Assembly (NCBI RefSeq): GCF_011694515.1
Contig: NZ_CP050192.1
Span: 4,293,064-4,357,063, forward strand
DNA from: Mycobacterium sp. DL592
GTDB lineage: Bacteria > Actinomycetota > Actinomycetes > Mycobacteriales > Mycobacteriaceae
Length of the DNA: 64,000 nt
Reading direction: 5' to 3'
Program-made: the position numbers and the translations under genes
The notes under the pieces: model-generated
Databases searched by the model: none
The model's input: only the letters and a program-made list of their open reading frames with translations
Told to the model about the DNA's origin: nothing
Shown here: one piece after another, positions 1,803 to 24,480 of the stretch
Layout of the letters: each line of letters starts with the position of its first letter
Position numbering within the stretch: position 1 is the first letter of the stretch

Positions 1803-4800
1803 GTGACCGACGCGTATACCGACGCAATCGTTAGCATCGTGCGCGGGATGAGCAAGAGCGAACCCAAGCCGATGCTTAAGCGCGTGCGTTTCGAGCTGGA
1901 AGAAGCTGGCATTGATACTGATTTCGCGGAGACCGGCCTGGTCGACGCGATCACGTCCACCGACGTGAATGCTCCCGCGCGCTACGAGTTCCATATCCAG
2001 CTCTCCAAATGGGACGCGCTGCCCGACCCGACGTGGGCAACAGACACGGCACCTTATTCCCAGCAACGACGCGACGCTATCCTCACGGCTCTCGGCTTCT
2101 CCGAAGATGGTCAAGCGCTTATCAACCACGCCTTTCAAGTGAACCTGTCTGGTGCGGTCGTGATCTCGGGCAAGCCAGCCGACTGGGATCCTTGGTACGA
2201 CTCTGAAGCGGGACGTTCTTTCTACTGGGATGGGTATCGAGGCGTTCTGGAGTCCAAAGGCTGGGACCCAGACGCGATCGCCGAAATGAGTCGGATAACG
2301 GACGAGGTGGTGAAGCGCCTGGCAAATCCGGCACGGGAAGATCCCTACCAGGCGAAGGGCCTTGTCGTCGGCCATGTGCAGTCCGGCAAGACCGCCAACT
2401 TCACCGGGGTAATCGCCAAGGCGATCGACGCCGGTTACAAGCTCGTCATTGTCCTAACCGGAACTATCGAGCTCCTGCGTGGCCAGACTCAACGCCGCAT
2501 CGACATGGAACTCATCGGGGAGGAAAACATCCTTGGTGGGGTGCCTCGCGACAACGACGAGCTCACCGCCTCGGTCGATTACATCGGTGACGGCGACATC
2601 GACTGGTACGAAGGGAAGTTCGTTTCTTACGGCAAGGACCCCAAGGAACTAGGGCTCCCCGGAATCCGTCGACTGACCGGAGCTCGTGACGACTACAAAC
2701 TGCTGAAGGCCGGGCTCGGCTATCTCGATTTCCGCCAAACCGACCATCTCGCCGATCCCGCGCGCCCGCTTTACGACCCGCAGAACCTCTACCGTCCGGA
2801 CATCCGGGTGGCCGTCGTGAAGAAGAACTCGACAGTATTGAAGAAGCTTGTCCATGATCTGCAGTCCACAAAGACCGATCTCGGTGAGATCCCCACACTC
2901 ATCATCGATGATGAGGCAGACCAAGCCTCGATCAATACGACGCGACCGAAGAAGGACAAGGAGAAGAAGTCCGAGGAAGAGAAAGAACGTACGGCGATCA
3001 ATCGCCTGATCGCGCAACTTCTGACGGAGCTGGAGCGAGCCCAATACGTGGGCTACACAGCGACGCCCTTCGCGAACGTCTTCGTCGACCCCGAGGATTC
3101 CGAGGACATCTTCCCGAAGGACTTCATCGTCAGCCTCGAACCTCCCCCCGGGTACATGGGAGGCAAAGCCTTTCACGATCTCGACACCGACACGTCGGGC
3201 GACGACGGCGAATCAGATGAAGAACGCACTGTTGCGAACTCAAACGAGAAGGCATTCATCCGTTCACTTCTCGCCGGAGCCGATGACTTGGACGCCCGAG
3301 ACAAAGAAATGCTCGGAGCCTTGGACGCTTACGTTCTCGCCGGAGCAATCAAACTTCACCGGGCCTCTGCGCTTGGAAAGCCGAAGCTCTTTCGTCACCA
3401 CACGATGCTCGTCCACGAATCGGTTAGCACCGACGAGCACACGTTGCTGGCCAACGATATCCGTCGCCTCTGGGGATCGGCCGGCTATGACCTGCCGATG
3501 GGCCTCAAGCGGCTCCAGGATCTCTGGCTGACTGACTTCCAGCGAGTAACGGCGGCCCGCGCACCGGAGGCACCGGCAATCGGAAGCTTCGCCGAGCTGA
3601 TCCCATTTGTCGGGCGAGCAGTCGACCGAATCCAGGCGGGCGTGAATCCCGTCGTCATCGTCAACGGTAAGGCGGAAAAGGACTACCTCCAGGCTGACAT
3701 CAACTTTCAGGCCGGGGATGTCTGGAAGATCCTCGTCGGCGGCACCAAGCTCTCCCGTGGCTTCACCGTCGAGGGGTTGACGGTCTCGTACTACACACGA
3801 AGGACGACCGCCGCGGACACGCTCATGCAGATGGGACGTTGGTTCGGCTACCGACCCGGCTATCGCGACCTCGTGCGCCTATACATCGGCCGAAATGTGC
3901 CCGGTCCCCGAAAGACGGTCATCGACCTCTACAAGGCTTTTGAGGCGATAGTGCGCGACGAGGAGGACTTTCGCGAGGAGCTCCGCAAGTTTCAGGGATT
4001 TGATGACGACGGGCGGCCCCGGGTGCGCCCGATGGATGTACCCCCATTGGTCTACCAAAGCCTGCCCTACCTCAAGCCGACGAGCAGCAACAAGATGTAC
4101 AACGCCGAGCTCACCGAACAGGGCGAAGGCGGGAAGGTTGTCGACTTCAATCAGCAAGGGGTTCACGACGACAACGTGAACCGGATGCACTTCGACGCAG
4201 TTCAACCGCTGCTTGATGCCGCCGATACTCAGGGCGAGTTCTTCTACATCAACGAAGTCGGAACGCCACGGCCGTGGAACGCTCGGTACGGCGTCGTCGA
4301 TGCCGAAGTACTTATTGAGATCGTCAGCAAGTTCAGGTGGGCCAACAACTTCAAGTTCGATCCTTACGTGGCGTTCATGCGAAAGGCAATCGCTGAGGGC
4401 ACTCTCAAGGACTGGGCCATTATTGTGCCAGAGATCGATTCACTCCCGACTAGGACTGTCGGAGGCCGGGACCTGAGGATAATTCGTCGCTACCGCCGCC
4501 CTGACAGGCCATGGCAGTTCTCGGGTTCGTCGACTCGCCAACGCGATGCATTGCTGGCGATCTCCGGCGGGATTGACGCTGAAACGGTCGATATCGATCA
4601 TGAGATCGAATCGGCGTTGCAACGGCCCGAGTACAAGCACGTCAACGAACTCAAGGTTGCGACCCGCGGCGCGTTGCTGTTGACGTTTGCGGGTGACAGC
4701 ACCTCGGCGCGGTACCACGATGCAAAGGGTGTGACCGACCCGAAGATGTTGCCCAATCCAACAGACCCGAAGAACATTGCGACGCTGTTCTCCTATGCGC

Positions 4801-4898
4801 TGCCATTGCTGTCGGCGCCGGCTGGGAGGATCGCCTTCACAGTGCGGCGGAAGGACCGTCCAGACGACGCGATCGTCGAAGCAGAACCGGGCGACTGA
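1803..4898 (+). CDS. Z1 domain-containing SF2 ATPase/helicase-like protein
   Basis: This 1031-aa P-loop protein is the motor-like subunit of the MORC-Z1 system. It shows the Z1-type Walker A G-H-V-Q-S-G-K-T (residues 190-197), a Walker B I-D-D-E-A-D (about 367-372), motif III T-A-T-P-F-A-N (about 418) and a late motif Q-M-G-R-W-F-G-Y (about 675), which is characteristic of Z1 proteins. I chose the GTG at 1803 because an AGGAG lies eight bases upstream and the preceding gene ends at 1798; an in-frame TTG at 1785 would overlap it. In known clusters Z1 works with a MORC-like ATPase and an endonuclease; both are directly upstream. An AIPR gene, often next in such clusters, is not seen here. Confidence 0.9.
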   Translation: MTDAYTDAIVSIVRGMSKSEPKPMLKRVRFELEEAGIDTDFAETGLVDAITSTDVNAPARYEFHIQLSKWDALPDPTWATDTAPYSQQRRDAILTALGFSEDGQALINHAFQVNLSGAVVISGKPADWDPWYDSEAGRSFYWDGYRGVLESKGWDPDAIAEMSRITDEVVKRLANPAREDPYQAKGLVVGHVQSGKTANFTGVIAKAIDAGYKLVIVLTGTIELLRGQTQRRIDMELIGEENILGGVPRDNDELTASVDYIGDGDIDWYEGKFVSYGKDPKELGLPGIRRLTGARDDYKLLKAGLGYLDFRQTDHLADPARPLYDPQNLYRPDIRVAVVKKNSTVLKKLVHDLQSTKTDLGEIPTLIIDDEADQASINTTRPKKDKEKKSEEEKERTAINRLIAQLLTELERAQYVGYTATPFANVFVDPEDSEDIFPKDFIVSLEPPPGYMGGKAFHDLDTDTSGDDGESDEERTVANSNEKAFIRSLLAGADDLDARDKEMLGALDAYVLAGAIKLHRASALGKPKLFRHHTMLVHESVSTDEHTLLANDIRRLWGSAGYDLPMGLKRLQDLWLTDFQRVTAARAPEAPAIGSFAELIPFVGRAVDRIQAGVNPVVIVNGKAEKDYLQADINFQAGDVWKILVGGTKLSRGFTVEGLTVSYYTRRTTAADTLMQMGRWFGYRPGYRDLVRLYIGRNVPGPRKTVIDLYKAFEAIVRDEEDFREELRKFQGFDDDGRPRVRPMDVPPLVYQSLPYLKPTSSNKMYNAELTEQGEGGKVVDFNQQGVHDDNVNRMHFDAVQPLLDAADTQGEFFYINEVGTPRPWNARYGVVDAEVLIEIVSKFRWANNFKFDPYVAFMRKAIAEGTLKDWAIIVPEIDSLPTRTVGGRDLRIIRRYRRPDRPWQFSGSSTRQRDALLAISGGIDAETVDIDHEIESALQRPEYKHVNELKVATRGALLLTFAGDSTSARYHDAKGVTDPKMLPNPTDPKNIATLFSYALPLLSAPAGRIAFTVRRKDRPDDAIVEAEPGD

Positions 4899-4986
4899 CT
4901 GTGGGACGCGGGGTCCCGCCCTACGCTGGGACACGGCGCTCCGCCGATCCCATGCAGGAAAACGACTTTCACCACAACTACATCCT

Positions 4987-5011
4987 GACCGATCTGCAAT
5001 ATGGATCGGTC
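4987..5011. terminator. Hairpin between convergent defence operons
   Basis: A perfect inverted repeat has 8-base arms (GACCGATC / GATCGGTC) and a 9-base loop. It lies between the Z1 stop (4898) and the end of the leftward metallopeptidase gene (5085). A second short repeat, GGGAC-N5-GTCCC, follows the Z1 stop directly. Neither has a U-tract, so a bidirectional terminator is an inference from position. The rest of 4899-5084 holds no gene I can support. Confidence 0.45.
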
Positions 5012-5084
5012 GCGGGACCTTCGAATGCGCTAATGGAGCACCAACGGACATCGGCGGATGGTGCCCGCATGACCTGGGACACGA

Positions 5085-6362
5085 TCAACCGTGGCCCATC
5101 TCCTTGTGGTCTCCTATTGATTCCGCGTACCAAGTCGATCCGGAGCGGTCATAGCGGAGATGCGCCCGGAAGTTACCACCGACGTTCACCGAGTAGCACT
5201 CGCGCCCATCCTTCTTCCACGGCTGGAAGCCCAGACCATTCAAAGCGGTAGACAGTGCAAGCTTGTCCACAGTGTTCTGCCAACGCTTTTGGATGCTCCT
5301 GTCAAGTCTCTTAAGGGTTTTCGAGAAATCCTCCGTCTGCTTGATATCAGTGATCACCTGAAAGAAGGAGATACCTATGCCAAGCGCGCCCCGGAGGTTG
5401 TGCTCGTCGAGAATGATGATTGGACACCTAGTCCAGTCGATATGGATGAGGTCCGGGTAGAACATCAGGGTATCCAGCGCGTGGTCGGGCGGAACCCACA
5501 GTGGCTTCGACTCGTGCTGATATTGCACTGATAGCTCACAAGAAGCGTCGAAGAATGAGTCCATGCGGCCATACGGACCGCGGGTCCTCACGTACTGTTC
5601 GGCGTCTCGGTATCCTTCCGGCTGCCGTTTGCAGAATCGTTTCAATGCCTGATAGGCGCCAACCGAATTCGCCAGGGGCCGCGACCGGTGTTTGAAGCCC
5701 CGCAACATGTACGCGTTGGCAAGGCCCTCTTCCAGTGTCACGTAGCCGTGAGGTTCCCTGTACCGCTCCTTGGCGTTCCAATAGACGGGCGCGCCCGTCG
5801 TCAACTCCCAATTGGCGATCATGCAATCGACGTTGAAGTGGAACAGCTCGTGGCGCAAGATCGCGTGGTACGCCAGATGTAGCTTGCGTTCCAGTGACAC
5901 ATTCACATCCGCGCAAGCATGCAAAGCGAATGCCAGAATTCCCTCGAACGGGATGTGTACCCCATACTGAAATCGCTTCTGGTGAAATGTGGTGTACCAC
6001 CCGTAGACGTCACTTCCGCTTAGCTGCGCGAGCTGTTCGATTTTCGTCAGCTGGTCATCACCAAGTACATGGTGGATCTCGGATTCGGTGACTTGTGGAG
6101 GAATCTCGAACACCACAACCGGTTCGTCGACCACGGTGTCGCTAGAGTCTGTATCGGCATCCAACCCCGCGTCGGGATCCGCGTCCATCGCGTAGCCGGC
6201 ATTGCCTTGGCGCTCGGGGTCCGATATCCACACGGCCATGGCCGGGTCGGCGCCTGTGCCTCTCTTATCCGTTGATGGGTCGTCGTATCGAGTTGCGCCT
6301 GCTACCTCGTCCAGCGCCTTCCGGATGTGACTAATCGACGGCACGTGCGGGCCACGGGGCAT
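5085..6362 (-). CDS. Putative zinc metallopeptidase fused to a RelE/HigB-like toxin domain
   Basis: This 425-aa protein has three visible parts. Residues 1-80 are acidic and low-complexity (D-P-D-A-G repeats), probably a linker. The middle part carries R-H-E-L-F-H (zinc motif HExxH at 171-175) and a downstream L-E-E-G-L-A-N-A (211-217) that could supply the third Glu ligand of a gluzincin-type site. Residues about 342-425 read like a RelE/ParE/HigB fold: a K-T-L-K-R-L-D-R helix pair, then C-Y-S-V-N-V-G-G-N-F-R-A-H-L-R and a final strand ending I-G-D-H-K-E-M, matching the usual order of strands in that superfamily. It starts 51 bases after the helicase stop, on the same strand, so it is probably the third gene of that operon. 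I know of no described defence gene with this fusion. ATG 6362 is preceded by AAGGTGA. Confidence 0.65.
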   Translation of the reverse strand: MPRGPHVPSISHIRKALDEVAGATRYDDPSTDKRGTGADPAMAVWISDPERQGNAGYAMDADPDAGLDADTDSSDTVVDEPVVVFEIPPQVTESEIHHVLGDDQLTKIEQLAQLSGSDVYGWYTTFHQKRFQYGVHIPFEGILAFALHACADVNVSLERKLHLAYHAILRHELFHFNVDCMIANWELTTGAPVYWNAKERYREPHGYVTLEEGLANAYMLRGFKHRSRPLANSVGAYQALKRFCKRQPEGYRDAEQYVRTRGPYGRMDSFFDASCELSVQYQHESKPLWVPPDHALDTLMFYPDLIHIDWTRCPIIILDEHNLRGALGIGISFFQVITDIKQTEDFSKTLKRLDRSIQKRWQNTVDKLALSTALNGLGFQPWKKDGRECYSVNVGGNFRAHLRYDRSGSTWYAESIGDHKEMGHG

Positions 6363-9400: not shown

Positions 9401-11042
9401 ACAACCGCCGGGAGGTGGGGTCTGACTTGGCTGTCTTCGGCTCGTCGTCGGCCAGCGTGAGTTCGTCCTCGTCCACCACAACATCGCCCTGGTCGTCAGC
9501 GAGGACCAGCCAGTTGACCGAACGATCTGCCGCTTTCGCAGGTGTGAAGAACTCGATGCCGTTGCGTGTCTCGAGATCTCCGGCGAGATGAACCGCCCCG
9601 CACCGGGTGCAAGTGCCGAACTCGAAGACGGCCCGACGGGTGTTGGCATCCACCTCGTGGCGGCCCAGGAAAATGTGCGGGCCGCTGTCGTTGAAACTGA
9701 CGAAGGCTCCCTCCGTCGCGCGCACGAACAAGTGGTACCGGGCGGACAGCACAGGATTGCCAGATTCATCGTGCACACTGCTGCCGAGCTCGACTAGCGC
9801 GTCGAGCTTCCCGGCTGAGTGCTCATCCTCAGGCCAGAGGTGTTCGCGCAAGGCGCGAACATCGACCGGCCCACCGCTGAGAGCAGTCTTCAGTTCGACC
9901 ATGGACTGCTCCGTGGCCAACGCGTCCGCCGGGTCGACACCGGGCGGGATCACATCAATAGGTTCGACTTGTGCGCGGTGGATGTCGAGCAGTTGCTCGC
10001 CGGTCAGGCGCCAGGTCGGCGTCGGCAGTTGGTTTTTGCGGACCGGCTCAACAAGGTCCTGGCGGTCGACGTCGCCCTCGATGTACTCGAAGGGAGCATC
10101 GAAAAGGTTTGCCGCGAACTCCATTGCCTCCCCGCGCGGGTCATTCCGCACCGAACCGGTCAGTGACGCCGACGTGGCGATGCACTGTAGGTCCGCTCCC
10201 GGAGCCACACGTTGCTTGAGCCTGCGAATCAGCAGTGCGACCTCGGAGCCCTGGGCACCGTCATAGACATGTGCCTCGTCCATGACGATGAATCGCCAGG
10301 TTCCGGCGTGCGGACCGTCGAACAGGTCGATGTCTATGGGACGCATTAGCAGGTATTCCAACATCGCGTAGTTCGTTAGGAGTAGATGCGGCGGCGTCAA
10401 CCGCATCTCATCGCGGCTGAGCAACTCGTTGGGCAACCGAAGTTCGCCCGGATTATTCTGCAGGAAGCCGTTTTCAGCATCGCGTGCGTGGTCTTCGGTT
10501 TCACCGGTATAGCGTCCGAATGTGATCTGCGGCAGGCCCGCGAGAACCGCACGCAGGCGCTTCAGTTGGTCGTTCGCCAGGGCGTTCATCGGGTAGAGCA
10601 GCAGCGCCCGAACCCCTGGCCGCAACGTTCCCTTCGCCGACTCGGCGATTAGTGAGTTGATAATCGGGATGAGGAAGCTTTCGGTCTTGCCCGAACCAGT
10701 GCCAGTACTCACCACCAGGTTTCGGCCCTTAACGAACTTGCGGATCGCAGTTTCCTGATGGATGTACAGCGGCCTGTCGAGCGAGAACGACGATCCATGC
10801 GCGGCGATGAAATCCGGGTGCAGCACGCCTTCGTCGATCAACTGCCGGCACGTCGCACCTGTCTGGTACGGAGGCGTTATCTCCAGGATCGGGCCTTTGG
10901 TGAGGAGCCTGCTCGCGTCAATCTCGGCATCGAAAGCCGTTGCCAGGACTTCGTCACGCGGTGCCAGCAAGGTCTTGAGGTATCGCTTGTAGCTGCTTTC
11001 AATCTGCTGTGCGGTCTCCAGCGGATCCAGTCGGTCGATCAT
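6414..11042 (-). CDS. DEAH-box helicase with C-terminal DUF1998/MZB-type domain (DruE-like)
   Basis: This is a 1542-aa SF2 helicase. Walker A is S-T-G-T-G-S-G-K-T (about 112-120), the DEAH box V-M-D-E-A-H lies at 253-258, motif III is T-S-A-S-L, and motif VI Q-R-A-G-R-A-G-R-R lies near residue 1000. The region between the two RecA lobes and the C-terminus holds many CxxC pairs. The last 40 residues contain C1507, C1509, C1515 and C1518 followed by L-R-T-Y-R-N, the DUF1998 (MrfA-type zinc-binding) signature. It overlaps the upstream 1127-aa gene by four bases (ATGA), showing tight coupling. Helicases with DUF1998 occur in Druantia (DruE) and DISARM; the pairing with one very large unknown protein fits Druantia III best. 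The helicase call is firm, the system name is inferred. Confidence 0.9.
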   Translation of the reverse strand: MIDRLDPLETAQQIESSYKRYLKTLLAPRDEVLATAFDAEIDASRLLTKGPILEITPPYQTGATCRQLIDEGVLHPDFIAAHGSSFSLDRPLYIHQETAIRKFVKGRNLVVSTGTGSGKTESFLIPIINSLIAESAKGTLRPGVRALLLYPMNALANDQLKRLRAVLAGLPQITFGRYTGETEDHARDAENGFLQNNPGELRLPNELLSRDEMRLTPPHLLLTNYAMLEYLLMRPIDIDLFDGPHAGTWRFIVMDEAHVYDGAQGSEVALLIRRLKQRVAPGADLQCIATSASLTGSVRNDPRGEAMEFAANLFDAPFEYIEGDVDRQDLVEPVRKNQLPTPTWRLTGEQLLDIHRAQVEPIDVIPPGVDPADALATEQSMVELKTALSGGPVDVRALREHLWPEDEHSAGKLDALVELGSSVHDESGNPVLSARYHLFVRATEGAFVSFNDSGPHIFLGRHEVDANTRRAVFEFGTCTRCGAVHLAGDLETRNGIEFFTPAKAADRSVNWLVLADDQGDVVVDEDELTLADDEPKTAKSDPTSRRLCAGCGLLAGAATNTCPSCHGDGMLPVREHPRAKRVMTRCTECGTLSRQGIRRLRTDVNAAPAVVTTALYQQLPKAADEAADQVGGGRKLLMFADSRQSAAFAAPYLDRTYARMLERRYITQALRDPAVLGEDLTAGDLAILAREKADAAGHFPWGMGKVEITKAVNQWISGELMTLETRQSLEGLGLMRVALQSDARVKLSSLTSLGLTEEEGWALLNELVKTVRLQGAVTVLDRVDVKDERFAPRNSRVRMRSTGSDRTKQVISWSPSGTGVTNSRITFVRKVLATLSNDAPPGRILQGCWKILESAGFLTVESDRTLGPLNQLDHRMLIVTDGGRCSWYQCNTCRQLTAFSVRAVCPNSRCTGKLKPFVLPDSHSDANHYRVTYQTMNTAPMTAREHTAQWNAKEATKIQDDFITGKVNVLSCSTTFELGVDVGDLQSVFMRNMPPRTANYVQRAGRAGRRADSAALVVTYANRAAHDLAQYQNPNAMIAGRMRIPWVPVDNPRIARRHAHSVALASYFRHCFEARDEQWTRAGEFFLPAADGGPSPASKVREYLTPVPASVTEALQMALPAAVQDEIGVAEGSWVQPLVELLETVGKELVKDVDDIEQRIEDSVKERKFALSKRLEDTKRTVIGRNLLGYLANRNILPKYGFPVDTVGLSTINSVDPVGSKLELDRDLGLAIYDYAPGNQVVAGGKLWTSAGLKKRPDRELIRHKYRICQTCSRFERGERLNVGDTCPSCGEEFKASKTLIIPEFGFIAAPENQDVGSSPPERRWHGGSYVETRGDEIGQYHWSGGGGLRVTARAGVRAWLAAVSDGTGDGFQLCEWCGWSAPAVRGSKAKKHQRPDNGRDCGGRWETISLGHRYQSDVAEFTFDGLPYQKDHEGNWISALYAILEGASYGLEISRDDIGGSLSWSADQRRSIVLYDTVPGGAGAAKKIAENIGVVMQSAVKRVTDCDCGEETSCYGCLRTYRNAREHERLSRRGALALLST

Positions 11043-14000
11043 TCAGCCTCTCCAGTCAGGTCACCACGGCGGTCGTAGAGCACCAGGGCTTCAGCGATCA
11101 GAATGTCGTTAGCCACCATCGTCGGGCACAGATGGGACATGTGCGCCCAGTCATCGAGCAGGCCCCTGTTCAGGTACTGCCCACCAATGCGTTTGTGTGC
11201 TTCCAGGCGGGCAAGCAGTGCCAGGGTCAGGGATTGCACCGACATCAACATCCACGGATGCTCCTCGACGTCGACTCCGCTTAGCCGGTAGAGCCGTAAG
11301 GCAATAGTCTCGTAAGCCAGCAGGGAGGCCTTCTTGATCGGATTCCGCACTAGATCCAATTGGGTGGCGAAGTTGGCCGACCACCCCGCGGCCATCCACT
11401 CCTTTCGGTGGCACAATCCCTCATAGACTCCTGCGCGAAGACTCTCCGGGTGCAACTGTGCCTTCGGAATCTGTTGAATCTCAGCCAACTTCGCATCCAC
11501 GCTATTTCCAAGAATGGAGCTGAGTTCGAGCACGGCCGGAGTGAAACAGGCGTCGTCGAATCGCACCGTCTTGCCTGTCTGCAGCAACTCCATCAGGGGT
11601 ACACCCCCACGCTCTCTCAGATACGCGAGTGTTTCAGCGCGCTCGCCGCGGACCTTATGGCGCCGGTGAAACAGCGAGGGCAAATCCGCAAGTTCGACCA
11701 TGCAGCCGAACCAAGGATGAGCGTGCAATTCGTTATGGGTCTGTTCCGCCGCAAAGCTGTGATTGACCAGTTCACTGCGAACAAAAGCGGCCATTTTGTC
11801 GCCGGCGGGAGTTGTGCCGTCCCCCAGACACTCCAGTGCTCTTCGCGGATCCTCTGCCAGCAGGACCGTCAGCTCTTTGAACCGCTTCATTCTGCCGTCG
11901 GCACGCAGACGAGTAAGGGCTACCCATACCTCATGAATTGCACCGACATTCACGGGAACTGGACCCGAGCCGCCGAGGAACCGTGCCAGCTCCCGCTGCT
12001 TGGGTGTGCCGTCAACGCGCCAACCTGATTGTGAAACGCGGAACGCGGTGTCGGGTGGTGAGGCCGGGCGTTCGATGTACACCCAAGGATCGTCGACGAA
12101 AAGTTGGCAGCGTAACTCCCCGCGGCCTACTAGATGCTGAGGCAGCCGCCCTCGCCCTGCCGTGAGCGGAATGACATCCGGCGCGTGCCACGGCGCAGTC
12201 GCACTCCAGACGTAAGCCGCCAGATCGTCGATGTCGGCAGCGTCGACGAATACCAATGTGTCGTGATCGACCAGTTCAACACCGGAAGCCAAGAGGCGTG
12301 GGCGAGCGACCAGCACAGCGACCGCGAGAACGCCCGCGTTCGTGTACAAGTTGGCGACAAGTGCTCCAGTTGGATGCGAACGGACCGTGTCGGCGAATTG
12401 CTGGGTTCGGGTCTCGAACACGTTGCCCTGCCGCCGCCGCGGGTGCGCGTCGAGTTGAAGCAGGTCACCATTTTCGGGGCGGTATCCGAAAGTGACGGCG
12501 TCGATACCGGGAGCGCGAATTGCGACGAACCGATCCTCGGCGAAGTCCTCGGGGTCGCAGATATCGGCACTCATCCTCCAGGGCACTGGCATCCCCGTTT
12601 CGCCGCTGCGGATCTCGATGTGCGGCGGTGTTAACACGAAATCCACGCTGCGATCCGCCGATCGAATGACTAGATCGGCAGTGGTCTTTCGGTGATCGAA
12701 TGCGATTGCGCCAGGAGAGCTGAGTGCGAGGTCGACGCTCTGGACCGTGGCAGTGCAGGGCGTCAGACCCCCAGATTCTGGTATCCGAATAACCGGCTCG
12801 AAAGTTGTGTCGACTCCCTCGGCGAGGAACACCACACAGCGTGCGTCCGCTCCCATCGGGCCGGTGACGACGACTTCAAACAAGCCGATCTGCGATTCCT
12901 CAGCTTCGTCGAACGGATCAACACACGTTTCGACATCCTCGCCGCGCCAGGATTCGTCGACGATCCACTGCGATTCTCCAAAGCGTCGGACGCGCACATT
13001 CCAGACTGGTGCCGGATCGGCTCCGCTGGGCGGCAACAAGACCCATGGTCGCCTGCAGTAGACCGTTCGTCCCTCGGTCGTGCTCAGGCCCGCAACTTCG
13101 TCGCCCAAGACGAAGCGGGGGCGTGAGTCCTTTCTTACCCGACGCGGGGTACCAATCGGATTACCGTCGTGGGTCAGCTGCAGGGCATCCACGAGCTCTA
13201 GGTCGACGAACACAGCACTCCAGCCGTGCCAGCCGGCCGGGTGACCTGTGCCTTGGGTATCCACCTTCGTCGCTGTACGTGTGTCTACCAGTTCGTAGCC
13301 GTTCGGATAGATAGCCCACGCGCTGTCTTTGAGCCCGTCGTGTCGGCCGATCCATCGCCCAGCTTGGTCAAAGATCAGTAGCGGATCAGATTCCAAGACC
13401 AGTGGAAGCGACGTCCCAGCCGCGGCCGGCTGGGTAATGACGACCTCACGAACCGGACCGGGCACCGCGACGCGAGCAAGTGCAGCTTGGGAATCACTAC
13501 CCCACCTCCGTACCGCGTGGACTTCGCGAACGTCACCGTCGAAGGACACCCACCATGCCTTGTCCGCCTCCTCCGAAGGTGCGGGTAGCACCAGAACGAC
13601 CTCGTCATCCTGCACGCTATAACTGATCGTGGGATGTGTTGCCGCCCTAGAACTTAGCTGCTTCTTGTCCAGATGGAGCGGCGTGTTCATCAGCTGGAGG
13701 ATCAGTTCATCGAGCAGTACTCCCGGTAGGCCTGTGGTCGAGGAATCCAACTCCGCGCCGAGAAGTGTTGGATCGGCGGTGCCGGCCTCGATGAACTCGA
13801 TGATGCGATCGAGAATGTCTGCGGCGAACTCGGCTCCGTGTATCAAGAAGTTGCGGACAGGGACGTCTAGGGTGGTCGCGCGGTATTCCTTACCGGGCTC
13901 CTGCAGCCATTCCATGACACCGGAGCCTGTCGCTGGCCGCCCCTGCACGATGTGGTCGGTGATGATGTCCAACAAGTCTCGGAGGCAGTGAATCGGAATG

Positions 14001-14422
14001 CCGGCATGGAGTGCGAGGGTCATAACGTACTTGTTGCCACCCCCCTGCTCGATGTCGGGGAACCGGGCTAGTGAGAACTTGTCGAGCAGGGTCGACAATT
14101 GGCGACGAATCTCGTTCTCGAAATCGGCGTCATGGGATAGGCCGAGTTCTTCCCAGAAGCTCTGCCAATACGCACCCTGGTCATAGGCCAGCGCGGCATG
14201 ACCGACCAGGCTCACCAAAGTCAGCGCCGGGTAGCGCTTGATGATCTTCTCGTGCGACCAACCTTGCTTTACCAGGTGCTCAGCTTCGCGGCCGAAGTTG
14301 TTCTGCGCTTCGCGGACCTCGTCTGCAGTGAAGTCGGTTTCGATAACGAGCCTGACCGGCGCCAACCGCTGCCGCCACTCGTAATCGGCATCGCTAATCC
14401 AGTCCGACAAAGGCGTCGACAT
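11039..14422 (-). CDS. Large protein of unknown fold, partner of the DEAH helicase (DruH-like?)
   Basis: This 1127-aa protein has no signal peptide, membrane segment or enzymatic motif that I can recognise. The N-terminal 160 residues look helical and contain W-S-H-E-K-I-I-K-R-Y-P (about 55-65) and K-Y-V-M-T-L-A-L-H-A-G-I-P (131-143). The middle is rich in beta-type segments and the last quarter is helical again. It is the first gene of a leftward operon: ATG 14422 has GGGGGAG nine bases upstream, and its stop overlaps the helicase start. A giant unknown protein followed by a DUF1998 helicase is the layout of Druantia type III (DruH-DruE), so DruH-like is my best hypothesis. I could not verify it by alignment. 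Confidence 0.6.
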   Translation of the reverse strand: MSTPLSDWISDADYEWRQRLAPVRLVIETDFTADEVREAQNNFGREAEHLVKQGWSHEKIIKRYPALTLVSLVGHAALAYDQGAYWQSFWEELGLSHDADFENEIRRQLSTLLDKFSLARFPDIEQGGGNKYVMTLALHAGIPIHCLRDLLDIITDHIVQGRPATGSGVMEWLQEPGKEYRATTLDVPVRNFLIHGAEFAADILDRIIEFIEAGTADPTLLGAELDSSTTGLPGVLLDELILQLMNTPLHLDKKQLSSRAATHPTISYSVQDDEVVLVLPAPSEEADKAWWVSFDGDVREVHAVRRWGSDSQAALARVAVPGPVREVVITQPAAAGTSLPLVLESDPLLIFDQAGRWIGRHDGLKDSAWAIYPNGYELVDTRTATKVDTQGTGHPAGWHGWSAVFVDLELVDALQLTHDGNPIGTPRRVRKDSRPRFVLGDEVAGLSTTEGRTVYCRRPWVLLPPSGADPAPVWNVRVRRFGESQWIVDESWRGEDVETCVDPFDEAEESQIGLFEVVVTGPMGADARCVVFLAEGVDTTFEPVIRIPESGGLTPCTATVQSVDLALSSPGAIAFDHRKTTADLVIRSADRSVDFVLTPPHIEIRSGETGMPVPWRMSADICDPEDFAEDRFVAIRAPGIDAVTFGYRPENGDLLQLDAHPRRRQGNVFETRTQQFADTVRSHPTGALVANLYTNAGVLAVAVLVARPRLLASGVELVDHDTLVFVDAADIDDLAAYVWSATAPWHAPDVIPLTAGRGRLPQHLVGRGELRCQLFVDDPWVYIERPASPPDTAFRVSQSGWRVDGTPKQRELARFLGGSGPVPVNVGAIHEVWVALTRLRADGRMKRFKELTVLLAEDPRRALECLGDGTTPAGDKMAAFVRSELVNHSFAAEQTHNELHAHPWFGCMVELADLPSLFHRRHKVRGERAETLAYLRERGGVPLMELLQTGKTVRFDDACFTPAVLELSSILGNSVDAKLAEIQQIPKAQLHPESLRAGVYEGLCHRKEWMAAGWSANFATQLDLVRNPIKKASLLAYETIALRLYRLSGVDVEEHPWMLMSVQSLTLALLARLEAHKRIGGQYLNRGLLDDWAHMSHLCPTMVANDILIAEALVLYDRRGDLTGEAE

Positions 14423-15179: not shown

Positions 15180-18100
15180 CTATCCGGCGGCCAGGGCCAG
15201 CTCGACGGTGACCAGTCGGTGCCCGCCGAGGAATCCGCCGAAGTCCGCCGAGTCCACCCGCGGCAGCCCGCTGACCCCGTCCACCGCGTCGACCAAAGCC
15301 GCCGACGGCACCGGCTCGATCAGGTAGATGCTCGACGCCGGGGCGACCGCGGCAGCACCGCCAAACAGGTTGCGCAGCCCGTTGAACAGCAGTGTCAGCC
15401 CGGACGCCGCACTGAGCAGCAGTGTCGCCGCCGTCCCGATCACCCCGCCGACGATGGCACCGACCGGGTTGTCACCCAGCAGCGACCCGATGCCCTGGCC
15501 GATCGCCATCCCGAAGGCGAACTGCAGCGGCGGGCTGAGAAGCACCGCGTTGATCACCGTGTTGATCACATCGGTGGGCGGCGTTCCATTGGCGAGGTCC
15601 ACGACAACGTTGCTCAGCAGCGTCTGTGCCGCGGAGTTGGACACCAGCGAGTCGACCGCCCCCTGGACCAGCTTGCCGGCCACCGAACCGAGCCCGGACC
15701 CGAGCACCTGGGTAATGACGTCCTTCGCCGCCCCGGAGACAGCCCCCTGCACCGCCGGCACATCCAGCGTCGCCTTGAGTACCTGGGCCGTGAAGGCGTC
15801 GATGGCGGCCTTGACCGCCGGGTTGGCCGCCAACGTCTGCAGCGCGGCCTGGATCGCGGCCGCCACCGTGGTGCCGCCGAGCACCGCGGTGACGATCTGG
15901 CTGGTCGCACCCGACAGCGCCGCCGGCACCCCGGTCTGCGCCAGGAAGCTGCTGACCGCGCCGCCGACCGCGGCGGCAAGGTCGGCCGCCGCCGACGGGT
16001 CGGCCAGGATGCTCACGATCGCGGGGCCATAGGTCGGGCCGAGCAGCCCACCGACGAGCGACTGCACCGCCGGGTTGCCCGCCAGCTGGGTGATCAACGA
16101 CGTCGCCGTCGAAGCCAGCGCTGAGATCAGCGGCGTATCAGTCACCACCGAGTTCACCACACTGCTCAGCGTCGACGCCAGCGCCGTACGGATGGCCGAA
16201 CTCGCTTGCAGTGCAGCCAATGCCCCATGGATGATAGTTCCGAGGTCCGTCCCGTTGAGCAGAGCCGTGGCGGCGTTCTGCGCCGCAGACGTCAACGCGG
16301 TCACCACACCGGACTGGCCGAAGAACGCGGTCAACACCGAACCCGTCACGGCACCCAGCTCGTCACTGAACACCGGGTTGGCCAAGAGGCCGGCCACCGC
16401 AGCGCCGACCGCCGAGGCGATCTGCTGCCCACCCGTGTAGCTGCTCAGCGCGGTGGACAGGAAACCTGCGATCTGCCCGCCGACGGCCGTCGACACCGCG
16501 GAATTCCCGACGATTCCGGACACCACGTCGGAGACGAACGCGCCCAGCGCCGGCAGCAGACCCGGAGCCGCCAGCACGGTCTGCACCACGTCGTGCACGA
16601 CTTGCCCCACCACGGGGGCCACCTCGGTCTTCAGCGACGGCCACGCAGCGGACAGCGCCGCGAACAGATTTTGACCGCCCAGAACCTTCGGGAGCACCGC
16701 ATCGATCACATCGGCCAGGACCACGGGGATCTGGTCGTTACCAACAGCCGATGCGACAACCGCCAGGAAGCCTTGCACCGCAGCGGAATTCGCCAGCAGG
16801 TTCTGTACCGCGCCGCCGATCGCTGAGGCCACCCCGGATGCGACCGGGCTGCCGCCCAGCGCCGACGTCAGCTTCTGCGTAATCACCTGGCCGACCCACG
16901 TCCGCACCGACGAGTTGCCGCTGAGCTGGGTGACCAGGTTGTTCACGTTGGTGGACAGGGCGGAGCGCACAGCGGGATCACCCAGCAGGCCGAGGACCGC
17001 GTTGCCGATCGTCTGACCGACGCCATTCTGGATGCTCGTGTTGGCCAGCAGTGTCTGCAGCGCGGCGGCCACCGCAGCCTGGGGATTGCCACCGGCACCG
17101 ACCGCCGTGGCGACCGAACTGGCGAACGTCCCCAGCGCGTCGGCGACCCCGTCCTGGCAGAGCAGGCCGCGGCAGGTGACAACGTCGCCGACCTGCACGC
17201 CGCCGACCAATCCGGCGAGCACCGAGGCCAACGTCGCGTCGACCGCCGGAGTGGTCAGCAGGTTGGTGAGCGAGGTGCCGATCGCTGTGCCGATGGTGGT
17301 GGCGACCGAGCCGCCACCCAGTGCCGAGGTCACCGACTGGCCGAGCGCACTGCCCAGGAACGACACGAATGCGGTGGACGGCTGCGCCCAGGACGGGCTG
17401 CTGACCCCGGTCAGCACATTGACCGCGGTGCTGATCCCGGTGGACATCGCGCTCTGCACGCCGCCGTTGGCGAGGAAGGTCGGCAGGTTACTGGCCAGCG
17501 CAGCGGCGCTCTGCGAAATGTCCTGGCCGACAAGGTCCTCGAGGGTGTAGTCCGTGGCGGCCAGGGCGGCAGCCAGTTCCGTCAAGCCCCACCCGTTGGG
17601 AACCAGAGTCAGGCTCTGGAAGAACGTGCCGAAGGCGTTCTGGAAGGCGGTGTTGTTCAACACGCTCTGCGCCAGGGCGGCCACTGCGTTGCCGACGACT
17701 ACGGCTGCCTGGGAGGGCACACCCGCGCCCGTGAGCCCGCCGGCAACCTTGGTGACGACGTAGTTGAGGAAGTTGGTATTGCCGGCCAGGCTCGAGAGCG
17801 CGCCGTTGACCGAGTCGCCGAAGTAGTTGTCTCCGAACAACTCCACCGCGACGGGGATGAAGGCGTCGGCGGCAGCCTGTGCGGCGGGGCTGAGCCCGGC
17901 GTAGTTGATGCCGGTCTTGATCAGATCGGTCAGCGCCGGTGCGACGACGTCGTTCCACAGCGACCACTGGACCGGGTCGACCGTCACTGTTTGACCCGTC
18001 ACGTTGGTGTTGCCATTGACCGCGGTGGCGGCACCGACGGTCTTCGGACCGCCGACGGCCGCGGCCGAGCCGGTCGTCCCGTCCTTACCCTTCTTGCCGA

Positions 18101-19088
18101 AGAAGCCGGCTTTACCGCCCTTGCCGCCCTGTGCGGTGAGGCTGGCACCGTTGCCGCCGTCACCGCCGTTGCCGGCGATCAAACCGCCGTTGCCGCCGTT
18201 GCCGCCGGCACCACCGTTGACTCCGACGACGCCGTTGGCGCCCTTGCCGCCGTTGCCGAAGAAGACCGCCGAGCCGCCGTCGCCTCCGTTGAACCCGTCA
18301 CCGCCGTTGCCGATGAAACCGGCCTTGCCGCCGTTGCAGGCGCCGCTGAGGCAGGCACCCTCGTAGCTGGTGTAGGTGTAGCCGTTGCCGAAGAGGATGC
18401 CGGCGTCGGGATGGTCGGCGGTGCCGTCGCCGATGAAGATCCGGATGAACGCCGCCACCGGGTCGACCGCCACGGCGGACGCGACGGGTTGGCTGGTGGT
18501 CACCGACGCTGCCGCGGGTGCGACGGCCGTGGAGTTGGCGGTCTCGCGGCGGCTCACGGCCGCTGCGGCCCACGCGAACGGCGCGACCAACTGCGACAGC
18601 GGGTCGTTGCCCCCGGCCAGCCAGTCCAGCGGGCCCTGGTCGGTCGCCGACAGCGATCCCCGCGGTGCGGCGGCGGTGAGAACCGGAGCGGCTGGCGTCG
18701 CTGTCGGCGCGTCGGCGGTCGGATTCGTCTCGACCGGCGAAACCTCGCCCACCGCAACAGTATTGGTGTCCGTGGTATTGCCGTCGGTGGCCCCGAGGTG
18801 GATGCGCCGCGCGGAGGTGGCGGCGCCGGATTCGACGCTGGCGGCGCTGGCCGGCTTGTCGGTTGCGCGACCCTTGCCGCCGTTGCTCGACGCGGCACTG
18901 CCGGGGCTGTGGTCCGCGGCGGCCTTGCGGGCGCTGTGCGCCACTGAGGACCCCGGCGTCTTTCCCGAGTCGCCGGCACCGGTGTCGGCTGCTGCAACGG
19001 GCATACCGGCGATCGCTCCGCCGACACCCAGGGCCACGGCCAGTGCGCCGACCCGTCCGACGTAGTGGCCTTTGTGTCCCATTCCCAT
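15180..19088 (-). CDS. PGRS-domain exported protein, paralogue 1
   Basis: This 1302-aa protein has four regions. Residues 1-36 are a signal peptide (G-R-V-G-A-L-A-V-A-L-G core, cleavage near V-A-A-A-D). Next comes a Pro/Ala/Thr-rich linker. A PGRS block of G-N-G-G-x-G-G repeats is introduced by H-P-D-A-G-I-L-F-G-N-G and a C-x4-C pair. The last part is about 850 residues of Ala/Val/Leu-rich helical repeats ending in a hydrophobic segment. There is no PE domain, so it is not a classical PE_PGRS protein. ATG 19088 follows GGGGG. The gene is a tandem paralogue of the next one to the right, with which it shares the signal peptide, linker, PGRS opening and upstream region. Cell-envelope or surface location is inferred. 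Confidence 0.8.
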   Translation of the reverse strand: MGMGHKGHYVGRVGALAVALGVGGAIAGMPVAAADTGAGDSGKTPGSSVAHSARKAAADHSPGSAASSNGGKGRATDKPASAASVESGAATSARRIHLGATDGNTTDTNTVAVGEVSPVETNPTADAPTATPAAPVLTAAAPRGSLSATDQGPLDWLAGGNDPLSQLVAPFAWAAAAVSRRETANSTAVAPAAASVTTSQPVASAVAVDPVAAFIRIFIGDGTADHPDAGILFGNGYTYTSYEGACLSGACNGGKAGFIGNGGDGFNGGDGGSAVFFGNGGKGANGVVGVNGGAGGNGGNGGLIAGNGGDGGNGASLTAQGGKGGKAGFFGKKGKDGTTGSAAAVGGPKTVGAATAVNGNTNVTGQTVTVDPVQWSLWNDVVAPALTDLIKTGINYAGLSPAAQAAADAFIPVAVELFGDNYFGDSVNGALSSLAGNTNFLNYVVTKVAGGLTGAGVPSQAAVVVGNAVAALAQSVLNNTAFQNAFGTFFQSLTLVPNGWGLTELAAALAATDYTLEDLVGQDISQSAAALASNLPTFLANGGVQSAMSTGISTAVNVLTGVSSPSWAQPSTAFVSFLGSALGQSVTSALGGGSVATTIGTAIGTSLTNLLTTPAVDATLASVLAGLVGGVQVGDVVTCRGLLCQDGVADALGTFASSVATAVGAGGNPQAAVAAALQTLLANTSIQNGVGQTIGNAVLGLLGDPAVRSALSTNVNNLVTQLSGNSSVRTWVGQVITQKLTSALGGSPVASGVASAIGGAVQNLLANSAAVQGFLAVVASAVGNDQIPVVLADVIDAVLPKVLGGQNLFAALSAAWPSLKTEVAPVVGQVVHDVVQTVLAAPGLLPALGAFVSDVVSGIVGNSAVSTAVGGQIAGFLSTALSSYTGGQQIASAVGAAVAGLLANPVFSDELGAVTGSVLTAFFGQSGVVTALTSAAQNAATALLNGTDLGTIIHGALAALQASSAIRTALASTLSSVVNSVVTDTPLISALASTATSLITQLAGNPAVQSLVGGLLGPTYGPAIVSILADPSAAADLAAAVGGAVSSFLAQTGVPAALSGATSQIVTAVLGGTTVAAAIQAALQTLAANPAVKAAIDAFTAQVLKATLDVPAVQGAVSGAAKDVITQVLGSGLGSVAGKLVQGAVDSLVSNSAAQTLLSNVVVDLANGTPPTDVINTVINAVLLSPPLQFAFGMAIGQGIGSLLGDNPVGAIVGGVIGTAATLLLSAASGLTLLFNGLRNLFGGAAAVAPASSIYLIEPVPSAALVDAVDGVSGLPRVDSADFGGFLGGHRLVTVELALAAG

Positions 19089-19102
19089 TGTTGCAACCCC
19101 CG

Positions 19103-19178
19103 ATTTGACGCCTGAGAAAGATCTGTCAGTCAGAGATATCACAGCGGCGTGGACCATGGCGCCATTTGCTGATGGCAA
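19103..19178 (-). promoter_or_regulatory. Shared upstream module, copy 1
   Basis: Read toward the gene, this region carries TTGCCATCAGCAAATGGCGC, then 15 bases, then TGTGATATC, then ATCTTTCTCA and GCGTCAAAT. The same blocks in the same order stand upstream of the second PGRS gene (24481-24559), while the sequence between them differs. It contains a TTGC-N5-GCAA inverted repeat at 19166-19178. TGTGATATC could be the -10 region. Function is inferred from conservation between the two copies. Confidence 0.6.
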
Positions 19179-19206
19179 GCAGCTAAACAGCCGGTAGCCG
19201 ACCCGT

Positions 19207-22200
19207 TCAGGCCACCGCCACCTCGATGAGGAACCACGGGCTGTCCGTCGAGGTCGCTTGACGCAGCTGCGAGGAGCCTCGCCCGTCACCGAGGGTCGCC
19301 TCAGGGCGGACGGCGGCCGCCGGGACCAGCAGCAAACTGCTGCCGGCCGGGTTCGGGAGCGGGCCACCGAAGAGCGCACTGATCTTTTCGATGAGCAACG
19401 CAGTACTGGCCGTAAGCCCGATCGCCACCGCGGCGCCCGTCCCGACGATATTGCCGATGAGAGTGGCAATCGGGTTGTCGCCGAACAGTGAACCCACGCC
19501 GCGGCCGATCGCGTACCCGAACGCGTACTGCAGGTTCGGGGTGGTGATGACGGCCTGCACCACGGTGCCGGCGAGCTGGTCGGTCGGCGTTCCGCTGAGG
19601 ACGTCGAGGGCGAGCGTGGAGATCAGGCCCTGCACGGCCGGATCCGACAGCAGCGACGCCACTGCCGCCTTGGCGACTCCGCCCAGGGCCGAGTCCACCA
19701 GCGGGTTGTCCAGCACGGTGCCCTTGAGCAGGTTGGTCACCAGATCCCCCACCGCGTCACTCGCCGCTTGCTGGACGGCGGGCAGGCTCAACACCGACTG
19801 GAGCGCACCGGGAGTCACCACTTCGATGGCCTTCCTGATCGCCGGATTGGCCGCCAAGGCCGCCAGCGCGGCTTGCACCGCAGCATCGACGCTGGTGCCG
19901 CCCAACACCGTCGCGGCGAACTGGCTGGCGATCGAGGACAGCGCGGTCGCTACCCCCGGTTGCGCCAGCACACCGCTGAGCAGGGCGCCCAGACCGGCGG
20001 CTAGGTCGGCGGCGGTGTGGGGAGTCGCGAGGATGCTCACCACGACCGGGCCGTAGGTGGGCCCGAGTAGTCCGTTGATGTAGGCCTGAACAGCGGGGCT
20101 CGGCGCCAACTGGGCGACCAAGGTCTCCACCGTCGAACCCAGCGCAGAGATCAGACCCGAATCGGTCACTGCGGCATACACCGCGGCGCCAGCGGTGCTG
20201 ATGACGGCCGAGACGAACGGCTGATTCGCTTGCAGCCCTTGCCATGCCGTAGCCAACGCCGCACTCAGATTGCTCCCGGACAACAGTGCCGTGACGAGCT
20301 GATCGGCCGCGTGGGACAACGCCGCCGCAACCCCTTGGGCGCCAACGAGATCCGACACCGTCTGGCCGAGTGCCGACAGCAGACCGTCAATGGCGGCCGA
20401 GTCGGCCAGGAAATGCTGCACGGCCGCGCGTGCCGCATCGGCGACCGCCGTTGCCAGCGGGGTGTTGTTCAGCACCGAACTGACGATGCCGGCGACCTCT
20501 TGGCCGATCCACGCCCGGATCGATTCCTGGCCGGCAGCCCCCGCGAGCACGTCGTGGGCAAAAGCGCCCAACGCGGAGAGCAGTCCCGGCGAGGTCAGCA
20601 ACGTGTTCACCGCAGTACCGACGGCAGCGCCGGCGCCCTGCTGGAATGCGCTCTTACCCAACAGCGTCTGCACCGCCACCGCCGGGTCGGTGCCGGCGAC
20701 CACCGCCGACACGATCTGACCGGCCGCATCGGCCAAGGCGGCAACGACCCCGGGGGCGTTCAGCAGGGTCGACACCGCGGAACTGATGACAGCCAGTGCC
20801 CCGTCGACGCCCGCGGTGTTGGCGAGCAGGCCCTGCACAGCGGCGTTGAGCTGGCTGCCGAATGCCGAAGCGGCAGCGCCGCCACCCAATGCTGTTGTCG
20901 CCCAATCCCCGACGAGTTTCCCGACGAAGGTCTGGATCACGGTGTTGCCGGCCAGTGTCGTGACGATGTCGGAGACCGCGGTACCGAGGCCCTGCAGCAC
21001 CGCGGAGTCGCCGAGCAGTGACGCCACCGCATCCTTGACCGCCGCTCCGGCGCCGGACTGAACGGTCGTGCTGCTCTCCAGCGATTGCACAGCGGTGGCC
21101 ACCGCCTCGGACGGATCCATCCCCGCCGCCAAGTGCTGGGCGAGCAGCCCCGCGACGTCGGAGAGAGCAGTGATCACGCCACTGTGGTTCAGCAGACCGG
21201 AGATGGCCGAACCTGCCACGTTGCCGATCCCGTCGACGACCTCCGCGTTGCCGAGTAGATCGGCGATCGCAGCGCTTACCGTGTTACCAACCAGAGTGCT
21301 GAATCCGGCTGTGGCAGGGTTGTTTTGGAGCTCGCTGGCCAGCCACTGGCCAACCTGCGCCGCAATGGCCTGCACGGCGCCGGTCTCAGACAATGCCGTG
21401 CTGATGAACAAGGTGGGTACGACGCCCAACGCCGACACGACACCCGGGCTGTTCAAGAGTGCCGAGAGAGCATCATTGGTCGCGGCACCGACGCCGGTGG
21501 CGACCTGGCCCAGCAGCGCCGTCAAGGCTGCCTGCACGGTGGCGGCGGTGGCAGTCCCGTCGAGAACGTCGGTAGCGATCTGCTGGGCGGTGGCGATCAG
21601 GGCGGCAGGCACACCCGTCTGGCCGAAGAATCCGCTCACCGCCGCGCTGACCGCAGCGCCCAGCCCCTGACCGAAGGCCGAATCCTGAAGCAGCGCATTG
21701 ATTGTCTGGTCCACTGCGGCGCCCAGAGCTGTACCGAGAGTGGTGTTGCCGAGCTGCTCGGCCACCCATTGGCCAGCCAACTGGGAGACGAAGTTAGGCA
21801 CGTCGGGCGACAGCAAGAGCCCGTCGATCAGGGCTCCGGCCGCAGATGCGAGGGCCTGTTGGACCCCCGAAAGCTCCAACTGCGTTTGCAATTCGTCGAG
21901 TGCCGCGCTGACGGTAGCCTGGATCGTGCTCTCAACACCGTATTCCGATAGGAACAAGTTGACGGCATTCTGTGCGGCTACCGTGGTCGAGGTTCCGCCG
22001 GCGACGTCATTGATGAACTGTGTCCCGGCTTCCACCAGCGCGGAGACGGTGTTGTCATTCAGGAATGTATCGACGCCGGTGCGCACTATCGATGAAACCA
22101 GTTCGCTCATCGAGTTGTTGGCCAACAGCGCATACACCGCCTGTTCGGCGGCGTAGCCGATGGCAGTGCTCAGACCGGCGGTCAACGGATTCTTGTTAAG

Positions 22201-24468: not shown

Positions 24469-24480
24469 AGCTGCCACCCA

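Follow-up and report, generated by a model that had tools for sequence, protein, structure and literature searches.

The 64,000-nucleotide (nt) stretch of the Mycobacterium sp. DL592 genome analysed here (the window; assembly GCF_011694515.1, contig NZ_CP050192.1, positions 4,293,064-4,357,063; positions below are window coordinates) carries on its minus strand an operon of three genes, encoding, in order, a protein of 1127 amino acids (aa), a helicase of the DruE type, and a 425-aa protein in which a zincin-like, putative metallopeptidase domain is followed by a domain of the RelE/ParE toxin superfamily (Table 1). The first two genes share four bases (ATGA), whereas the fusion gene starts 51 nt past the druE stop. 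The helicase is a relative of DruE, matching the PADLOC models DruE1 (E = 1.1e-181) and DruE3 (E = 1.6e-166), the latter match stopping at position 1673 of the 2055 in this profile, the longest for DruE, so that its C-terminal region is not reached. The 1127-aa protein has no matches in PADLOC or NCBIfam and a single Pfam row at chance level (E = 0.14), and three of its relatives match no family in the PADLOC library, in which the presence of a DruH model is unconfirmed. For the 425-aa protein, neither Pfam nor PADLOC nor NCBIfam yields a family at E<=1, and the PDB has no matching sequence. As judged from alignments of its relatives, it represents a family in which one predicted zincin-like chassis carries either a RelE or a HicA toxin domain at the C-terminus.

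Table 1. Positions of the operon genes and of the parts of the fusion protein within the window.
Feature	Position	Strand	Basis or remark
Zincin-RelE fusion protein, 425 aa	5085..6362	-	single copy in own genome; has homologues
N-terminal segment, residues 1-77	6132..6362	-	short helix 10-17, then very low model confidence
Zincin-like domain, residues 78-332	5367..6131	-	modelled alone: predicted local distance difference test (pLDDT) 92.2, predicted template modelling score (pTM) 0.91
HELFH, residues 171-175	5838..5852	-	putative zinc ligands and catalytic Glu
EEGLANA, residues 211-217	5712..5732	-	putative third ligand Glu
RelE/ParE-superfamily domain, residues 337-425	5088..5354	-	structure model, fold match
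Stretch with conserved R399, H401, H419 and H424 of the toxin domain	5091..5168	-	alignment of relatives
DruE-type helicase, 1542 aa	6414..11042	-	Pfam DEAD, Helicase_C, MrfA Zn-binding/DUF1998 (MZB)
1127-aa protein	11039..14422	-	position and size of DruH

As to the peptidase part, the protein carries an HExxH motif with a candidate third ligand, as expected of a zincin metallopeptidase, and the motifs are strictly conserved, HELFH being kept in all 119 covered rows of the RelE-type alignment and E211 and E212 in 120 of 120. The domain yields a confident model, yet its structure and profile matches to known proteins are weak. These include projannalysin, LTA4 hydrolase and the zincin part of ArdC, which we take to be gluzincins, a class that shares with the fusion protein the combination of HExxH and a downstream glutamate. 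Comparison with Peptidase M78 (ImmA/IrrE) gave 0.1% by hhalign, with a score below those of four of five column-shuffled controls and with only four M78 rows, and a search of the same genome with the M78 model (PF06114) pointed to one place, elsewhere than the fusion gene. The segment preceding the zincin-like domain is modelled with a pLDDT below 50 at residues 32-39 and 45-77.

As to the toxin part, residues 337-425 are predicted by the structure model to adopt the RelE/ParE fold, and of 21 C-terminal fragments three match the Pfam model ParE_toxin weakly, at best with 1.3e-4. Within this part R399 is kept in 106 of 109 RelE-type rows, H401 in 107 of 109, and H419 and H424 in 103 of 108 each; these four are candidate equivalents of known RelE/ParE catalytic residues. 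When the RelE part is compared with PDB profiles, the top row (E = 0.06) is 7xbj, an insecticidal 40-kDa toxin of Xenorhabdus, which is also row 3 in Foldseek; the Foldseek alignment is long, with a root-mean-square deviation of 22.6, the resemblance thus being confined to the RelE-like C-terminal stretch. A preliminary description of this DNA, which had proposed a metallopeptidase and a RelE/HigB-like C-terminal block in one 425-aa protein and had singled out HELFH with the downstream EEGLANA, is borne out on these points: both domains are found, and H171, E172 and H175, along with the toxin residues, turn out to be conserved in homologues. Conserved ligands and toxin residues together support a functional protein.

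The relatives reveal a swap of the toxin. Two weak matches of the RelE-type profile within the genus (in genomes G020 and G189) are proteins of about 380-400 aa that share the N-terminal pattern and possess a C-terminal HicA domain, Pfam HicA_toxin (PF07927) scoring above its cut-off in both HicA-type proteins scanned (8.3e-10 and 3.3e-11). A search with the HicA-type N-domain retrieved 118 proteins, many carrying precomputed HicA annotation, bringing the family to a total of about 300 members (192 + 118). The N-domains of the two types are homologous: in six genomes, the profile of HicA-type proteins retrieves genes of the RelE type, at 4e-14 to 1.9e-5 and across the zincin positions, and hhalign, run on profiles of 12 and 15 rows, aligns 142 columns of the two N-domains (probability 99.2%, E = 8.8e-20) such that HExxH and EE coincide, an alignment for which no shuffled control was made. 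Therefore, one N-domain bears, at the same end, ribonuclease (RNase) toxins of two types that differ in fold. In the HicA type, H147, E148 and H151 are kept in all 117 covered rows, and the two glutamates of EE in 116 and 115 of the 118 rows. The HicA histidine is kept in 101 of the 104 covered rows, and 14 of the 118 rows stop short of its position. Among the proteins whose ends were inspected, P0224, P0225 and P0227 (299-308 aa) end neatly at the junction, with no HicA domain, and the ends of P0141, P0149, P0169 and P0172 look truncated or frame-shifted. P0225 (299 aa) and P0227 (308 aa), both zincin-only, stand for 33 and 27 member sequences, and may reflect gene splitting, truncation or a form that lacks the toxin.

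Proteins ending at the junction lend some weight to the notion that the zincin is itself the effector, cleaving a phage or host protein, with the RelE or HicA domain acting as a parallel weapon or as a ribosome or RNA docking module. Both of the swapped domains come from RNA-acting toxin families, and conservation is no lower for the residues of the zincin than for those of the toxin. We consider it unlikely, in view of the strong conservation of the toxin residues too, including the HicA histidine in nearly all covered rows.

RNases of type II toxin-antitoxin systems are normally restrained by a separate, degradable antitoxin, and in a RelE/ParE module the antitoxin gene is adjacent. All frames of at least 25 aa within 1 kilobase (kb) on either side of the fusion gene were compared for the DL592 locus and six others (L002, L003, L013, L014, L015 and L078). 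Among the same-strand frames downstream, none is common to more than two of the seven loci, and the two that L002 and L003 have in common overlap a convergent gene in antisense. The latter gene, of about 240 aa, lies just downstream in L002, L003 and L015 (three of the five loci with both druE and the fusion gene), its products in L002 and L003 being 67% identical, and it is absent from the DL592 locus. Upstream, matches among druE-bearing loci fall in druE, sense or antisense, and a weak match of L078 to L015 (31% over 80, E = 8e-5) is also within druE. No conserved antitoxin gene was found in the seven loci, and the fusion gene in this respect departs from a type II module; single loci may still have an antitoxin of their own. 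Therefore, the chain itself or the operon partners must keep the RNase quiet.

One way for this to happen is known from CapRel, a cis-acting, single-gene toxin-antitoxin. By analogy, the zincin-like domain would bind a phage product, a change of shape would open the toxin, and the zinc site would be structural or non-cutting. Such an arrangement accords with the lack of a partner antitoxin and with a constant N-domain behind which toxin domains are swapped; in addition, CapRel is cited as a model for fused HicA-HicB proteins in the accessible text of a HicA survey (PMC10865869). It sits less well with the invariance, among RelE-type rows, of HExxH and EE, including the catalytic glutamate, which a structural zinc alone would presumably not require, and we regard the CapRel-like explanation as rather unlikely.

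The genomic distribution was assessed by searches that score no more than a handful of preselected candidates in each genome (4 to 9 with these profiles), so that misses are possible. The RelE-type profile finds a match in 9 of 248 genomes of the genus, seven of them RelE-type and two HicA-type. Five of the seven RelE-type copies are located directly after druE (those of DL592, G039, G166, G179, i.e., locus L003, and G244, i.e., L002); one (G063, L013) has no druE and lies beside apparent transposase genes, and one (G210) is cut by a contig end, so that five of the six testable copies follow druE. In the three loci measured (DL592, L002 and L003), the two genes share a strand and are 51, 51 and 67 nt apart. 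The 1127-aa protein is found in 19 of the 248 genomes, three times as a fragment, and the remaining 16 all adjoin a DruE relative. Of these 16 druE pairs, five have the fusion gene, one (G024) has a 31-residue remnant of it, nine have none in the stretch fetched, and one (G216) is at a contig that ends too early. The fusion gene is thus an accessory of the druE pair, not a fixed part, carried by 5 of the 15 testable pairs. Two of the five carriers have a broken frame, G039 before the toxin-domain core and G166 inside the zincin part; the breaks are those of loci L014 and L015, and the position of one of them, shortly ahead of the toxin core, may be a sign that the toxin part is selected against. 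One further trace of the operon is seen at locus L071 (G004; 4667-5035), where residues 2-59 of the 1127-aa protein immediately precede residues 1478-1540 of DruE; this is a deletion scar of the operon.

Full HicA-type genes in the genus sample number three. Two (G020 and G006) are positioned divergently beside a DrmD-DrmMI pair, with a GajA-GajB pair on the other side of the gene in G020, and the third (G189, L018) has no recognised defence neighbour. In draws from higher taxa, the RelE-type profile finds one of 397 genomes of the order (DL592 itself), and the zincin-only profile matches 2 of 396 genomes of the phylum and 4 of 401 of the family, the order, phylum and family draws overlapping. 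An intact RelE-type gene in G1293 (L078) lies between Leo-type dynamin genes and a gene for a 965-aa protein that has no PADLOC match, with a UvrD-type helicase next; a truncated copy in G1208 lies near GajB-, DrmA- and DrmD-like genes; and in G903, from another family of the phylum, a RelE-type protein is recognised by eye on a 3.4-kb contig. Overall, the distribution of the family is sparse and patchy, and most copies with readable neighbours have defence genes around them. The preliminary description, which had placed the fusion gene third in an operon with a large protein and a DUF1998 helicase and had called for a survey of this triple, is correct for DL592 and for the druE-linked copies of the genus; as a fixed trio the arrangement does not hold, most testable pairs lacking the gene and intact copies occurring elsewhere in defence islands or alone.

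Another explanation is a simple addiction or stabilising toxin, carried along in defence islands and functionally unconnected with DruE and DrmD. Solitary copies (G063/L013 and G189/L018), the copy in G1293/L078 beside other defence genes, and the nine testable druE pairs without the fusion gene are all compatible with such a rider. The constant place and strand after druE, at 51-67 nt in the three loci measured, speak against it, making a mere passenger quite improbable. Carriage by phages, plasmids or viruses was also considered and rejected: comparison of three members with plasmids and of two with phage records gave no match, and two scans of viral contigs gave no confirmed relative.

Other genes in the surroundings include, downstream of the operon, a DrmD-like gene in L002 (16872-20471) and a DrmMI-like gene in L003 (16370-20488). 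The window itself contains at 15180-24477, on the minus strand, a tandem pair of very long, glycine-rich and repeat-rich frames of similar layout (1429 and 1756 aa), which to us are reminiscent of PGRS-type mycobacterial proteins.

Among known systems, the operon comes close to Druantia type III, in which a DruE helicase with DUF1998/MZB is also present and the order of large protein and helicase is alike. The differences are that here the partner has no PADLOC match, DruE is shorter, and a third gene is present. For Mycobacterium smegmatis, the available text of one report describes overlapping genes for DruH (1132 aa) and DruE (1667 aa) that provide non-canonical abortive defence, DruH alone being toxic and DruE neutralising it (PMC13316683). 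Identity of the 1127-aa protein with the published DruH is not established: the 11 residue positions published for DruH fit at best at five, and at large offsets, among the 120 listed of 146 relatives of the 1127-aa protein, a relative in M. smegmatis MKD8 matching at 4 of 11 and the distant loci L069 and L070 at 5 and 3 of 11. In Escherichia coli Druantia III, according to the accessible part of another report, defence requires a residue in the phospholipase D (PLD) pocket of DruE (PMC13192584). The DruE of the DL592 operon has no C-terminal PLD nuclease region. In the parts available of a preprint on YprA-helicase defence, the type III-like branch is described as most often nuclease-free, and Druantia III-A and III-B are named (PMC12458937). 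DruE measures 1542-1545 aa in the five loci that carry the fusion gene and in the locus with its remnant; at L068, L069 and L070 it exceeds the usual 1541-1551 aa by some 100-130 and ends in an extra C-terminal stretch, and all three loci lack the fusion gene. The counts leave undecided whether the third gene substitutes for a lost DruE nuclease, six other loci with a short DruE also lacking it and G216 being unreadable.

Among toxins, RelE, YafQ, YoeB and HigB of the RelE/ParE superfamily (BECR fold) differ from the present case, in which the domain sits behind a zincin-like domain and no partner of the RelB or HigA type was found. The HicA-type fusions have the Pfam HicA domain (PF07927) at the same C-terminal place as the RelE domain. 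The HicA survey lists, in the text available, 14 contexts, including HicA-HicB and SMC-HicA fusions (Gerdes, 2024; PMC10865869), and its main text contains no mention of a peptidase, a protease or zinc. A RelE/ParE survey, in its accessible portion, excluded many multidomain proteins for having no identifiable antitoxin or too few members, and makes no mention there of a peptidase (Gerdes, 2025; PMC11980606). In ARMADA type II, as presented in the available sections of the YprA-helicase preprint, a RelE-like predicted RNase domain is fused to a GajB-like helicase (PMC12458937); the main text mentions neither peptidase nor protease. In that system the helicase has the RelE domain at its N-terminus, in contrast to the position behind a zincin here. 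A UvrD-type helicase frame in L003 (14254-16551), likewise downstream of the operon, opens, by eye, with a RelE-like stretch, as in ARMADA II, and a frame at 14346-16472 in L002 resembles it by appearance. None of the scanned fusion proteins matched a PADLOC or NCBIfam model, and HicA was the single Pfam model matched. In full-text literature searches, with most subscription papers outside their scope, none of the titles and starts of abstracts among the papers listed describes a zincin-RelE or zincin-HicA fusion, in agreement with the initial remark that no described system with such a fusion is known. What is new is the zincin chassis shared by RelE and HicA, along with its link to helicase defence genes.

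We favour, with a probability of roughly 0.4, the reading of the fusion protein as a caged and self-contained RNase toxin for which the zincin domain acts as the gate, and which would serve as an abortive-infection arm in defence islands. Published work lends indirect support, through the abortive defence by Druantia III of M. smegmatis and the need for the DruE PLD pocket in that of E. coli. The N-terminal domains would hold the RNase inactive in cis, because no partner antitoxin gene was found, and the zincin would act as an enzyme, because its catalytic site is invariant. The helicase complex, or another sensor, would report infection; the zincin would then cut the chain, or an inhibitory segment of the chain; and the RelE or HicA domain, freed or unlocked, would cleave mRNA, so that the cell stops growing. 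The trigger that would open the cage and the cutting of the chain are conjectural, as is the sense-and-kill step of proteolysis and toxin release suggested at the outset. That earlier interpretation is partly supported, and gains from the homologous peptidase domain fused to HicA beside other defence genes. Relatives with a different toxin type at the same place suggest a swappable caged toxin for virus defence. A broader proposal, of a family of protease-gated zymogen toxins in which one zincin chassis with interchangeable RelE or HicA plugs into the DruE pair or DrmD-DrmMI and cuts itself on infection, is offered tentatively, and is more probably wrong than right. If true, it would amount to a logic akin to that of caspases and gasdermins: a sensor would trigger proteolysis and thereby release an RNase that is tethered covalently.

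In conclusion, RNase toxins of two types, unlike in fold, follow one zinc-peptidase-like domain within the same polypeptide, with helicase-based anti-phage genes next to them, and two domain profiles are now available for finding such fusion genes. If the peptidase gates the toxin, then these proteins would link DNA-sensing defence helicases to cell arrest by RNA cleavage, and would provide an effector for the nuclease-less helicases of the Druantia III-like kind.
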